A stretch of 64,000 nucleotides of DNA from Propionibacteriaceae bacterium (lineage in GTDB: Bacteria; Actinomycetota; Actinomycetes; Propionibacteriales; Propionibacteriaceae), in the NCBI GenBank assembly GCA_031266665.1, contig JAISAO010000035.1:1-64000 (forward strand). The letters run 5' to 3'. Below the pieces are notes generated by a model. The model was not told the DNA's origin and searched no databases. It worked only from the letters and a program-made list of their open reading frames with translations. Every line of letters begins with the position of its first letter. Positions within the stretch are counted from its first letter, which is position 1. Made by a program: the position numbers and the translations under genes. Positions 1 through 5,894 of the stretch are shown here, in pieces.

Positions 1-3000
1 GCTGGTGACGCCGCCCAACGGGTTGGTGACGTCTGACAGCAGGCCGCGCGACTCGTAGCTGTAAGCGGTTTTGACGTCGGTCGTCGCGGTCTGGGGGCCG
101 CCGGTCGCGTTCTCGACCACGGCGACAAGGTTCCCGGCCGAGTCGTGCTCAAAGCTGGTCAACCGCCCCGTCGCGTCCGTCACCGTTGTCAGGTTGCCCA
201 GCTGGTCCCAGCTTTGGCGGGTGACCGCGCCCGTCGGATCGGTCTGCTCGACCACCCGTCCCATCGAGTCGTAGGACCAGGCCGTGACTCGCCCCAGCGC
301 GTCGGTCGCCTTGGCCACCAGACCCCCGGCGTCCAGCTCGAAGTCTGTCGTCCCGGCGCCGACTTGGTAGGAGCTGACGACATCGCCCACCGCGTCATAG
401 ACATAGGCCGCCTCGCGCCAACCGACCGGATCTGTCACCTCGACCACTCGGCCGGCGGCGTCGCGGGACGCCCGAGTGGTCAGGCCCAACGGGTTCGTCA
501 CAGCGGCCAACCGGCCGGCGGCGTCGTAGTCGTAAGCCGTGGCCGCGCCCGCCGGGTCTGTCTGGCGGACCAGTCGGCCGGCGGCGTCGTACTGGTAGAC
601 GGTCGCCCGGCCGAGCGGGTCGACGCTCTCCACCACCTGACCTCGCCAGTCGTGGGCGTAAGTGGTGACGGCGCCGAGCTGGTCCGTTTGGGCGACGACG
701 CGGCCCGCCTGGTCGTAAGCCGTCGTGGCGATGCCGCCGTCGGGATAGGTCACCGCCGACAATAAGCCTCGGGCGTCGTAGGCGTAGGAGGTGATATAAC
801 CGGCCTCGTCGGTCTCGCTGGCCACCCGGCCGGCGGCGTCGTAAGCCGTCTGGAAAACCTCGCCCCGGGCGTCGGTCCGCGCCACCTCGCGCCCCAGCGC
901 GTCCAAGCTGTAGACAATGGTCGAGCCGTCGGCTTGGACCAATTGGGTCAGACGCTGTTCGACGTCGTACTGATAGCGGGTGACGCCGCCGTCCGGCGCG
1001 GTCTCGGCGATGAGATACAGCTCGCTGTCGTAGGCGAAGGTCCAGGTCTCCCCCCGCCGGCCGGTCAACGAGACTAGTTTGCCGTTGACGTCGTACAGGC
1101 CGGTCTCGCTCGAGCCGTCCGCCAGCCTGACTGCCGTCAAATGGTCGTCCAAGTCGTACTCGTAAGCCGTGACCGCCCCCAAGGGATCGGTCATCAACAC
1201 AACCCGGTTGGCCAGGTCGTAGTCGAAAGCAGTGGTGTTGCCCAACGGATCTATCACGCTAGTCAAATTGCCTCGGGCGTCGTATCCCATCTTGGTGACG
1301 GCGCCCAGTTGATCAGTCACTTGGACGAGGTCTCCGTTGGCGTCGTACTCCTGGCGCGTGGTCGAACCGTCCGGGTAGGTGGTCACGACCGGCAAGCCCC
1401 TGGCGTCGACTTGGTAGCTGGTCGTCTGGCCGAGCTCGTCCGTGGCCTCGATCAAGTCCCCGGCGGCGTTGTAGAGGCTGCGTGTGGTCGCGCCCGTCGG
1501 ATCGCTCACGGCCGTCGGCTGCCCGGCGGCGTTGTACTCATAAGTGGTGACAGCCCCGTCCGCCGACCGTTGGGAACTGGTCAGGCTGTTGCCCAGGTAG
1601 TCCGACACCGTCTCCCCGCCCAAAGCGTCGACCACTTTGACAACCTGATGTTCTGAGTTCCAGTGGTAGACGGTCACCGCGCCGGTGGCATCAGTGTAAG
1701 TCGTCGTCTGAGCCCTGTCGTTGAACACCAGGGTCCGGGTGTAACCCATCGACGTCGTCTGACGCACCACTCGTGACTGGTCGTCGTACTGGTTGCGCAG
1801 CCAGGTGACGTCGTCCGCCCCGGTCTGGGCGATCATCCGATGCTCGGCGTCATAGTCGTAACGCAGCGTCCCGCCACCCGGCTTGGTCAAAGCCACGAGA
1901 TCGCCGTCCGGCGAATACCCCAGCCGCCAAATGGCCCCGTCAGGCCGGGTGAGGGCGGTGACGCGCCCGTCGTCATCGGTCTCCACCGCCACCGTCTGGC
2001 CGGCCGTGTCGGTCACCCGGGCCAATTTCCAGAACAGCGCCCCGGCACCGTCGTAAAACAAAGTCAGGGTTTTCCCGCTCCGGTCGCTGACCGAGGTCAG
2101 GCGCCCGCGCCCGGTCTGATCATCGACCGCGAAGGTTCGGATCTCCCCGACAGACGACTCCCAGGTCAGCGTCGACCCGTCGCCGCCCCAGGTCAGAGTG
2201 GCGAAGGCGTCGTCGGGGCTGACAAAGCCGCCGGCCCCATCGGCGTCGAAGACGAAACCGCGTCCGTCCGGCAGGACGATCCCGGCCGAATCGTCGTCGA
2301 ACAACTGGGTGTAAGCCCCGTAGGAGTAAGTCCAGCCTTGGCCCACGGGCGAGTCCAGGCCGGATTGGGCGTTATAGGTCAGCTCGAAGTCCATCGCTTG
2401 GTCCCCGACCCCGGTCAAGGAGAGCAAGGCCTCGGAGGTGACGAAGTCGCCGGTGCTCATCGACACCGGGTCGGCCCCGTAGCGCAGATAGTTCTGATAG
2501 CCCAGGTTCCTCAGCCGCTCCAACTCGTCCGCCGACGGCCGCGCCGGATAGGGCGACCCGCAGGTCAGCCCCATCGTCTCCATCTGGTCCCGGATGCCGG
2601 CGTAGACGCCATCGACCACCAGGTCGAAAGCGGTGGTGATGATCGGGTGGTCATAGTTGTGGTCCAGGAACAAGGTCTCCAAGTGGACCCAGGGGAAGGC
2701 CAGGTCGCCGTAATCCGGGTACCAGGGCGAGTTGGCCGCCGTCTGGACCGGCCCGTTGGCCGACCGTCCGGTGTAGGCGGCTATTTGGTCCAGCAGCGCT
2801 TGGCCGAAACCGACGTCCTGCGGCCGGGCGTAGGCCTCTGGGCCGCCGTCCGTCTGCACCCCCCAGGGATAGCCGGTGAAGGCGTTGAAGGCCAACGTCA
2901 CCATCAAGTCGGCGCCGGCCTCGACCGCCACCGCTTTACGCTCCGCCCGGGAGACCACGCCGGGGCTATCCCCGCGCGTCAGCACCACCTGCGAGCGGCA

Positions 3001-3222
3001 CTCGATCTCCAGGCGGTTCTTCAACTCCAGGGCCAACTCGTGGGACAGCTCCAATTCGCCCATCTCGGGCTCCCCCGGCCAAACCGTGTGGGCAATGTCA
3101 TCGTCCAAGTCGAGGACGATGACAGCGGCGGTGGCGGCCTCGGCGGGGGTGTACTGCCCCAGCCAGACCGGTAGGGCGACGGCGGCGGCAATCACTATTG
3201 GCAGTGGGCGAAACGATTTCAG
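1..3222 (-). CDS. Secreted Rhs/YD-repeat protein with degenerate N-acetylmuramoyl-L-alanine amidase-like domain (3' end outside window)
   Basis: One open frame runs without a stop from about 3222 to the window edge, giving at least 1,074 residues. Order: signal peptide (hydrophobic PLPIVIAAAVALPVWLG, then AEAA); residues about 34-205 that resemble amidase_3 (VIVLD, GELELSHELA, VVLTRGD, ADLMVTLAFNAFTGYPWG, WVHLETLFLDHNYDHPI); a DUF6531-like Rhs entry domain from about residue 250 (DPVSMSTGDF, later LTYNAQSG and GQGWTYSYG); then some two dozen YD repeats (TAYDAAGRV, SYDSMGRVVEQTDPTG) from about residue 455 to the edge. Rhs proteins form hollow shells that carry a variable C-terminal toxin; that end is not visible. 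The amidase-like part reads DLDDDI where DPGHGG is expected and LAFNA where SIHANA is expected, so zinc-binding His residues seem lost. No ATG fits: a CTG at 3222 follows AAAGGGGACAGG and yields a normal signal peptide, and a TTG at 3282 is the alternative. Confidence 0.85.
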   Translation of the reverse strand, partial: MKSFRPLPIVIAAAVALPVWLGQYTPAEAATAAVIVLDLDDDIAHTVWPGEPEMGELELSHELALELKNRLEIECRSQVVLTRGDSPGVVSRAERKAVAVEAGADLMVTLAFNAFTGYPWGVQTDGGPEAYARPQDVGFGQALLDQIAAYTGRSANGPVQTAANSPWYPDYGDLAFPWVHLETLFLDHNYDHPIITTAFDLVVDGVYAGIRDQMETMGLTCGSPYPARPSADELERLRNLGYQNYLRYGADPVSMSTGDFVTSEALLSLTGVGDQAMDFELTYNAQSGLDSPVGQGWTYSYGAYTQLFDDDSAGIVLPDGRGFVFDADGAGGFVSPDDAFATLTWGGDGSTLTWESSVGEIRTFAVDDQTGRGRLTSVSDRSGKTLTLFYDGAGALFWKLARVTDTAGQTVAVETDDDGRVTALTRPDGAIWRLGYSPDGDLVALTKPGGGTLRYDYDAEHRMIAQTGADDVTWLRNQYDDQSRVVRQTTSMGYTRTLVFNDRAQTTTYTDATGAVTVYHWNSEHQVVKVVDALGGETVSDYLGNSLTSSQRSADGAVTTYEYNAAGQPTAVSDPTGATTRSLYNAAGDLIEATDELGQTTSYQVDARGLPVVTTYPDGSTTRQEYDANGDLVQVTDQLGAVTKMGYDARGNLTSVIDPLGNTTAFDYDLANRVVLMTDPLGAVTAYEYDLDDHLTAVRLADGSSETGLYDVNGKLVSLTGRRGETWTFAYDSELYLIAETAPDGGVTRYQYDVEQRLTQLVQADGSTIVYSLDALGREVARTDARGEVFQTAYDAAGRVASETDEAGYITSYAYDARGLLSAVTYPDGGIATTAYDQAGRVVAQTDQLGAVTTYAHDWRGQVVESVDPLGRATVYQYDAAGRLVRQTDPAGAATAYDYDAAGRLAAVTNPLGLTTRASRDAAGRVVEVTDPVGWREAAYVYDAVGDVVSSYQVGAGTTDFELDAGGLVAKATDALGRVTAWSYDSMGRVVEQTDPTGAVTRQSWDQLGNLTTVTDATGRLTSFEHDSAGNLVAVVENATGGPQTATTDVKTAYSYESRGLLSDVTNPLGGVTS

Positions 3223-3580: not shown

Positions 3581-5701
3581 TCAGGCCTCGTTCATGATGG
3601 TGGACAACTCGTTCACCAGGGGCAGGTCGTAGATCTCCTCCAGGGTCAGGCGGTGGCCGTCCTCGCCGCCCAGGGGGACGCGCCAGTTGGGGTACTCGTC
3701 GATCGTGCCGGGCTGGTTCTGGGTGCGCCGCTCCCCCACGGCGTCGACCAACGCGACGCACAGCAGACGGGACTCGGTCAGGGCCAGATAGCGGTGCAGG
3801 GCCAGCAGGATGGCGTGGGGGTCGCGCTCGCCTTGGGCCAGCAGGCCGCGGCCCTCCAGCATGTGGACGATGGCGCCCTGCTCGGCCACGTCCTTGGCGA
3901 TCTCGTCGGCCAACGACTCGGTCAGCAGGCCGAGCGAGTGACGCAAAGAGACGTGGTCGTGGGCCAAGTAACCGGCCGTCGGCGGCAGGTCGTGGGTGGT
4001 GACCGAGCCCAGGCACAACTCGCGCCAGTCCTGGGGCGGCTTGACCCGGCCGTCGTCGGTGTACTCGAACCACAGCACCGAGGTGCCGAGGAGGCCGCGC
4101 TCCAGCAGGTAGTCGCGCACCCAGGGCTCGACCGTGCCCAGGTCCTCGCCCACCACCACGGCGTCGGCCAGCTTGGCCTCCAAGGCCAAGATGCCGACCA
4201 TGGCCTCGTGGTTGTAGCGGATGTAGGTGCCCTGGCCCGGGCCGTGTCCGGCCGGGATCCACCACAGCCGGAACAGCCCCAGGATGTGGTCCACCCGGAT
4301 ACCGCCGGAGTGGCGCAGGATGGCCCGGACCATGGCCCGGAAGGGGGCGTAGGCGGCCTGCTCCAGCTTGTCCGGCCGCCAGGGCGGCTGCAGCCAATCC
4401 TGGCCGGACTGGTTGTAGGCGTCGGGCGGCGCCCCCACCACCACGCCGCGGCCGAACAGCGGTCCCATCATCCAGGTCTCGGCCCCGGCCGAGTTGACGC
4501 CCACCGCCAGGTCGGCCATGATGCCGATCTTCATGCCGATCTCCTGCGCCCGGTGCTGGGCGGAGGCCAGCTGGGACTCGGCCATCCATTGCAGCCACAT
4601 GTGGAAGCGCACCGCCTCGGCCCGCCGCTGGGCGTGGGAGACGACGGCCGGCGACTCCGGGTCGCGGAACTCGGGCTCCCACTGGCGCCAGTCGGCCCCG
4701 AAGTCCTCGGCCAGCACGCAATAGGTCGCCCACAGGCGCAACGGCTCGCCCTCCTGGGCGAAGAAGGCCTCCATGGCCATGGTCCGGGCCGGGCGGCGGG
4801 GGGCGGCGAAGATCTCCTCCAGGGCCTGCCGCTTGGCCGCCCAGACGGCGTCCCGGCGGATGGCCGGCTCGTCGGCCAGGGACTTGGCCAGGTCGCGGCG
4901 GCGCTCGGCGATGCGGCGGCGGCGCTTGTCCGACAGGCCGCCGTACTCCTCCACCCCCTCGGGGCGGATGTAGATCGGGTTGACGTAACGCCGGGAGCTG
5001 GGGAAATAGGGCGACGGCTCCATCGGCGCGACCGGCTCGGCGGCGTGCAGCGGGTTGATCAAGATGTAGTCGGCCCCGTGCTGGGTCTTGGCCCAGACCG
5101 CCAGGTCGGCCAGGTCGACCAGGTCGCCGAAGCACCAGCCGCGCTTCGAGGCCAAAGAGTAGAGCTGGACCATGAAACCCCACACCCGGCCGTCGCCCAA
5201 GCGGGCCGGCAGGCCGACATAGGACGGCGTCACGATCAAGCTGGTCTCGACGGTCTGCGGCCCGGAGCGCAAGACGATGTTGTGGTAGCCCAGGGGGATG
5301 TCGCCCGGCAGCTCGAAGCTGGCCCGGCCCACCAGATGGCCGTCGACCTGGCGGTCGGGCACGTCGTTGTCGATCTGGCGGACCTCGATCCGCCAGCCGT
5401 TGTCGCAGCGCACCCAGACATCGGCCGGCGAGCCGGCGGCGACGTGGGCGTCGAAACGGGCCGGGCGGCCCCGCTCCATCACCACCACCGGCGGCAGGCC
5501 GCGCCGCCAGGCGGCCAGCTCGTGCTCGGCCAGGGCGGCCTGGACGGCCTCGGGGGTGGAGGCGTCGACGTCGATGGCGGCCAGGGCGGCCACCAGGGTG
5601 TCGGCGGCGATGTCGACGTGGTGGCCCTTCCAGTCCCAGAACTCCGTCGCCACCTTGTGGGCGGCGGCCAAGCGGGACAACGCGGGATCGATCTCAGCCA
5701 T
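3581..5701 (-). CDS. malQ: 4-alpha-glucanotransferase (amylomaltase, GH77)
   Basis: 706 aa, the length of actinobacterial MalQ. The enzyme transfers alpha-1,4-glucan chains between acceptors in maltodextrin and glycogen metabolism in the cytoplasm. GH77 catalytic motifs are intact: nucleophile Asp about 471 in RVDHILGLFRLWW, acid/base Glu about 519 in VVGEDLGTV, and Asp about 571 in TTHDLPPTAGY. The first 150 or so residues form the N-terminal extension common to long MalQ proteins. I chose the ATG at 5701 because AAAGGTG lies 5 nt upstream; the frame extends 11 codons further without a better site. It appears monocistronic, followed at once by palindromic element copy A. Confidence 0.95.
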   Translation of the reverse strand: MAEIDPALSRLAAAHKVATEFWDWKGHHVDIAADTLVAALAAIDVDASTPEAVQAALAEHELAAWRRGLPPVVVMERGRPARFDAHVAAGSPADVWVRCDNGWRIEVRQIDNDVPDRQVDGHLVGRASFELPGDIPLGYHNIVLRSGPQTVETSLIVTPSYVGLPARLGDGRVWGFMVQLYSLASKRGWCFGDLVDLADLAVWAKTQHGADYILINPLHAAEPVAPMEPSPYFPSSRRYVNPIYIRPEGVEEYGGLSDKRRRRIAERRRDLAKSLADEPAIRRDAVWAAKRQALEEIFAAPRRPARTMAMEAFFAQEGEPLRLWATYCVLAEDFGADWRQWEPEFRDPESPAVVSHAQRRAEAVRFHMWLQWMAESQLASAQHRAQEIGMKIGIMADLAVGVNSAGAETWMMGPLFGRGVVVGAPPDAYNQSGQDWLQPPWRPDKLEQAAYAPFRAMVRAILRHSGGIRVDHILGLFRLWWIPAGHGPGQGTYIRYNHEAMVGILALEAKLADAVVVGEDLGTVEPWVRDYLLERGLLGTSVLWFEYTDDGRVKPPQDWRELCLGSVTTHDLPPTAGYLAHDHVSLRHSLGLLTESLADEIAKDVAEQGAIVHMLEGRGLLAQGERDPHAILLALHRYLALTESRLLCVALVDAVGERRTQNQPGTIDEYPNWRVPLGGEDGHRLTLEEIYDLPLVNELSTIMNEA

Positions 5702-5894
5702 GACGCACCTTTGCTTCGCGGAATTGGGAACCACTGTGGCGCCATCCTAAGCCGGTCCACGGCCGAGGGCGCACCCAGGGTGGGGCTGCGGTGGGGACGG
5801 GCCGTTGTCCGGCGGGCGACCGATCCGGCCCCACCACGGTCCACCAGACTAACCGGCCCCACCACGATCTGCCGGGAGACTAGGCCGCGGGCGG

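Follow-up and report, generated by a model that had tools for sequence, protein, structure and literature searches.

What does a domain related to peptidoglycan amidases do at the N-terminus of an Rhs protein once its zinc-binding histidines are gone? The question is raised by a gene at the edge of a 64,000-nucleotide stretch of DNA (hereafter the window, meaning the whole stretch analysed), which is contig 53 of its genome from base 1. The minus-strand frame 3222-1 is open through base 1, the start of the contig, and because the gene is truncated there, the C-terminus of the window Rhs protein is unseen. A signal-peptide-like start is followed in this frame by a relative of Amidase_3, a linker, DUF6531 and RHS repeats, all on the minus strand. 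The start codon is probably a CTG (3220..3222), to judge from an alignment by eye of its CTG-AAA with the ATG/GTG-AAA of two related loci, L009 and L010, and AGGGGA lies just upstream. At the position of the CTG, L009 has ATG and L010 has a Val codon, probably GTG; gene callers that accept only ATG, GTG and TTG place the start of the window gene at a TTG farther upstream.

The N-terminus (3133..3219) looks by eye like a signal peptide, with a basic segment, a hydrophobic run and an AEA-type cleavage region. It leads into the degenerate Amidase_3 domain, or pseudo-amidase (2560..3132), which we call the head. A conserved linker (PARPSADELERLRNLGYQNYLRYGA; 2473..2559), recognised by comparison with the heads of relatives, connects the head to the Rhs shell, which begins with DUF6531 (2248..2472; Pfam PF20148, 4.6e-11, residues 252-326 of window:1-3225) and continues in RHS/YD repeats that are cut by the contig start (1..2247; Pfam PF05593, 8.1e-128, 21 stretches). 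The gene holds both elements of an Rhs/YD shell, DUF6531 and RHS repeats, and window:1-2481 matches the solved Rhs chain 7q97 at 3.3e-53. A further gene of the window (3581-5734, minus strand) encodes what we take to be a 4-alpha-glucanotransferase-like protein, and a gene similar to it by eye is found in L009 (580-2919, plus strand); in one genome this neighbor lies upstream of the Rhs gene, in the second it is found downstream and on the opposite strand.

A preliminary description had proposed that the head keeps the order of the Amidase_3 blocks while lacking the His ligands. The motifs that it quoted (VIVLD-LDDDI, GELELSHELA, VVLTR, ADLMVTLAFNAFTG and LETLFLDHNYDHPI) are all present in the minus-strand frame, and the family assignment was borne out. 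A Pfam-A search of the window head returned Amidase_3 (PF01520) at E 2.1e-8; the score of 34.9 bits exceeds the cut-off, 27, and places the head in the family by sequence. The match spans residues 56-213 of 253 and positions 20-173 of the 174 in the model. The strand that resembles DPGHGG falls outside the Pfam match, yet inside a profile-profile alignment by hhalign of the heads with 46 amidases from viral contigs (98.6%, E 5.2e-16, 168 columns, head positions 2-185). When scored with a profile of these 46 amidases, the 7 known heads reached 17.7-33.2 bits, compared with 4.6 bits for the best of the chance controls (1000 shuffled heads plus 7 reversed heads). Finally, a six-head profile run against solved structures hit CwlV (4.3e-7), 4rn7 (5.8e-7), Cwp6 (0.001), and 3ne8 and AmiC (0.15 each), so that named amidases account for all five matches up to E 1. 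An AF2 model of the head, built from only 2 sequences, had a pLDDT of 39.

A chance resemblance, with no amidase kinship, would accord with the limited reach of the Pfam model: the cut-off is attained only by the window head and by the copy on contig 102 among the 7 heads, while L010 stays below it, and L009, L011, L012 and L021 are absent from the listing at E 0.1. In a search of other genomes, the heads of genomes G006, G008, G011, G017 and G329 miss E 0.001 with the Pfam Amidase_3 model. The hhalign alignment at 98.6%, together with scores above all 1000 shuffles for 7/7 heads, rules this reading out, and we regard its probability as negligible. On sequence comparison, the head is a descendant of Amidase_3, and its homology is firm.

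The canonical zinc ligands of Amidase_3 are His, Glu and His (Rv3717; excerpts of PMC3852659). Neither His is kept in any of the 7 heads. In the window, Asp10-Asp11 (3100..3105) replace the Gly-His of DPGHGG, with the loss of His1, and Asp occupies both sites in 7/7 heads. The second ligand, His2, is replaced by Ala81 (2890..2892), so that SIHAN reads TLAFN; this residue is Ala in 6/7 heads and Ser in the other. Both glutamates are retained in the window, as the preliminary description had stated: Glu26 (3055..3057), at the position of the zinc-ligand Glu, is Glu in 7/7 heads and in 46/46 viral-contig amidases, and Glu152 (2677..2679), at the position of the catalytic Glu, is Glu in 6/7 heads and Phe in G329. 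Alignments with solved structures lead to the same assignment. The head consensus LDPDDD aligns on LDPGHG of AmiC (4bin) and 3ne8, and HLE of the heads aligns on LLE and LVE of CwlV (1jwq) and Cwp6 (5j72); therefore, His1 has become Asp, His2 has become Ala, and both glutamates are present. Homologues of the head with intact His ligands, which would have undone the proposal, did not turn up (0/7 heads).

How the viral-contig amidases were chosen bears on these comparisons. They were fetched by DPGHGG DNA patterns, their phage status being the IMG/VR label, and 192 loci yielded 164 ORF pieces, 56 of which aligned at E 0.01 or better; the 46 that were used had in addition passed a filter for the motif H-x-[ND]. 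That 46/46 have His at columns 11 and 81 is consequently a product of the fetch and the filter, and columns 26, 126, 150 and 152 are free of selection. Among the 56 aligned pieces, His is found at column 11 in 25/25 aligned rows (31 unaligned) and at column 81 in 55/56. Since the head fails the zinc-ligand test, the term amidase is not appropriate for it. In genome G011, two amidases (L042 and L043) read SPSNQ and SPTNQ at the DPGHGG site and keep IHTDA and LHTDA; an Amidase_3 type that is without His1 only thus exists in the same genus.

Could the lost zinc site have been rebuilt? Two residues before the catalytic Glu, the heads have acquired a histidine, His150 (2683..2685), present in 6/7 heads and replaced by Gln in G329. 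Column 150, which was not selected on, is Leu, Ile or Val in all 46 viral-contig amidases (40, 5 and 1, respectively) and in 28/28 aligned rows of the 56 pieces (28 unaligned). Residues two apart on a strand face the same side. A re-tooled site for zinc or calcium, assembled from Asp10/Asp11, Glu26, His150 and Glu152, would turn the head into an altered hydrolase or into a binder that depends on metal, and its proposed members are well kept (D10, D11 and E26 in 7/7 heads, H150 and E152 in 6/7). However, G329 has lost both H150 and E152 with the rest kept, and conservation is in any case widespread, with 58 of the 217 columns invariant in the six-head alignment. We consider such a site unlikely. 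The fuller version, in which the His moved from 81 to 150, Asp10/Asp11 stand in for His1, and a metal-dependent binder or hydrolase steers the Rhs toxin shell at the envelope, strikes us as quite unlikely. Cys45 and Cys191 of the head are also invariant (7/7) and might pair as a disulfide in a secreted domain.

Apart from the two lost histidines, the canonical positions fall into two groups. D8, E26, L41, V49, T52, R53, R65, N83 and G91 are kept as in canonical amidases in 7/7 heads. In contrast, canonical R126, V140, L141 and R142 are replaced in 7/7, the V-L-R stretch at 140-142 lying in a gapped region of the alignment, and these replacements make retention of the old peptidoglycan site doubtful. 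The suggestion of a pseudo-amidase turned wall-binding module stands in part: the head descends from Amidase_3 and has lost the histidines, but the replacement of R126 and 140-142 in every head speaks against a simple carry-over of the old substrate binding. Given these further lost positions, any ligand of the head may be something other than the old substrate.

A head that has lost both histidines and, in G329, the catalytic Glu as well might also be the remnant of an amidase decaying without function. This reading is contradicted by purifying selection. Estimates of dN/dS, rough because dS is near saturation, were 0.18-0.36 for the head (ten pairs, five heads) and 0.23-0.42 for the shell (six pairs, four), well below 1 and lower in the head than in the shell in 6/6 shared pairs. 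The same replacements recur across the heads, and no stops occur inside the matches. We therefore think functionless decay very improbable. A 57-row tree separates the 7 heads from all other rows by a branch with 100/99 support, on a stem of 2.94; long branches meet in this tree (the heads with L042 and L043), and its bootstrap is not settled. Judged from these sequences, the heads changed in a burst and then came under constraint again; they are repurposed rather than decaying.

Homologues with the same order of amidase-like domain, DUF6531 and YD repeats, a search for which had been proposed at the outset, do exist. Two copies of the head lie in the window genome, and it also occurs in four genomes of the same genus (G006, G008, G011 and G017) and in G329, which belongs to another class; DUF6531 with RHS repeats follows it in 7/7 cases, so that the order head-linker-DUF6531-repeats is common to them. 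The two copies in the window genome, on contigs 53 and 102, are 52% identical in the head; the contig 102 copy (L013) is a second head-Rhs gene that is likewise cut by a contig end, and repeats common to both copies may be the cause of both contig breaks. The G008 frame (L011 3982-6954) is 991 residues long and stops inside the repeats, some 55 bases short of the contig end, which leaves its shell incomplete.

An amidase-like head on an Rhs shell is rare. Searches matched it in 5/57 relatives, 5/198 genomes of the family, 5/293 of the order, 1/296 of the class and 2/396 of the phylum, and around G329 in 1/148 of its order and 1/247 of its class; these tallies overlap, count the window genome or G329, and include many genomes whose first-look candidates were scored only in part. 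A search of contigs gave 26 stretches, 2 of them confirmed (L007 and L008). L007 was not counted as an extra head, as its frame length and first 330 residues are the same as those of the G006 contig 16 frame, and the L008 match covers 29 residues. Plasmid and phage records held no match to the head, and among viral contigs none was confirmed, whether they were searched with the head alignment (71 pattern stretches) or with two cellular amidases (7 and 11 stretches). The window genome, a 94% complete assembly, has no further Amidase_3 match at E 0.01, and an Amidase_3 match of any kind turned up in 3 of the 14 other genomes examined. The stand-alone match in G329 (L040) reads DAGHGG and SIHHN. 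We found no description of an amidase-head/Rhs fusion in the open-access literature searched, and the portions of PMC3482391 that were shown describe none.

Loss of the zinc-binding histidines implies that the head is probably a docking or capping part and not an enzyme. As a structural cap, it would seal the Rhs barrel at its N-terminal end or make that end more stable, or else aid folding, and bind nothing outside. The head does sit directly before the shell, joined by the conserved linker, even in the G011 protein (L012), where about 250 extra N-terminal residues (3851-4600) lie ahead of it and DUF6531 still follows directly. Its old active-site residues have been replaced by other conserved residues, and the N-terminal plugs of Rhs, Tc and teneurin shells vary by class (PMC8636562, as excerpted). 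Nevertheless, the shell resembles solved Rhs shells, and linker plus DUF6531 matched in 14 genomes, only two of which, the window's and G329, have the head. At the other 12 loci no amidase motif was seen by eye in the pieces read, several of which were not just upstream of the shell. From the solved-shell match and these 12 loci, the head seems dispensable for shells in general, and we hold the cap to be a tentative and rather unlikely reading.

The relatives offer a view of the part that the window lacks. The Rhs-associated core scores above its cut-off in L009 and L010 and just below it in G329 (L021). For Ntox44, whose cut-off is 24 bits, the C-terminal piece of the G329 protein scores 24.6, and the whole protein 20.2, below the cut-off. 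No toxin model matched the tails of L009 and L010. Each of these Rhs genes has a neighbor that could be its immunity gene: a DUF4279 gene follows the one in L009, an unmatched 182-residue ORF follows the one in L010, and in G329 an ankyrin-repeat ORF, so named from a sub-threshold match, comes next. NCBIfam gave no name to any of the three tails or the three neighbors. Judging by these relatives, the window gene, in which no toxin domain was seen and whose C-terminus is off the contig, may encode a secreted Rhs polymorphic toxin of a WapA-like type that carries an unusual adaptor at its N-terminus.

We give about an even chance to a reading in which the head serves a WapA-like Rhs polymorphic toxin, exported by Sec, as its N-terminal adaptor and docks the payload at the envelope without cutting. 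An ancestor would have fused an Amidase_3 peptidoglycan amidase ahead of an Rhs shell. The sequence scaffold would then have been retained while the zinc site was dismantled, His1 going to Asp and His2 to Ala. Placed just outside the N-terminal end of the shell, the head would probably act by binding, and would dock or orient the payload at a cell envelope that it leaves uncut, whether the producer's own wall or that of the target. We infer Sec export, the retained fold, the absence of catalysis and the docking role. Position and the analogy with WapA favor anchoring or delivery, with binding as the presumed means: the head stands where Rhs proteins have their variable part for delivery (excerpts of PMC8636562) and where WapA has its LysM wall-anchoring N-terminus (parts of PMC12704120).

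Like WapA-type secreted Rhs toxins of Gram-positive bacteria, the window protein combines a start that resembles a signal peptide by eye, an N-terminal adaptor and an Rhs/YD shell, and its relatives add a variable C-terminus and neighboring candidate immunity genes. The adaptor differs, being a degenerate Amidase_3 domain here, whereas Streptococcus suis WapA has LysM and DNRLRE domains (PMC12704120, in the parts shown). Type VI secretion Rhs proteins such as Rhs1 also combine a shell with an N-terminus that serves delivery and varies, but it is of the PAAR type (PMC8636562, in extract), in contrast to the signal-peptide-like start of the window protein. With the amidases CwlV, AmiC and Rv3717, the head shares a sequence family over nearly the full domain and, in the window, both Glu positions; unlike them, it is without both zinc histidines, has other conserved positions replaced and is fused to an Rhs shell.

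CwlM, a mycobacterial amidase homologue, sets a precedent as a relative of the Amidase_3 type in Actinobacteria that also has degenerate zinc residues, and its essential function is regulatory (PMC4946905, from the text available). It differs from the head as a cytoplasmic regulator with peptidoglycan-binding domains, for which its authors did not rule out enzyme activity, and its degenerate sites are histidine/arginine, compared with Asp and Ala in the heads (same extracts). The head would be, like CwlM, an Actinobacteria case of an Amidase_3 relative whose zinc residues are gone. How very large Gram-positive Rhs shells pass through and are retained by the wall is not settled (PMC12704120, same parts). 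At about 200 residues, and free of the toxin part, the isolated head is small enough for direct testing. If the docking reading is true, the N-terminal slot would here be filled by a new kind of adaptor, a former peptidoglycan enzyme that no longer catalyses.
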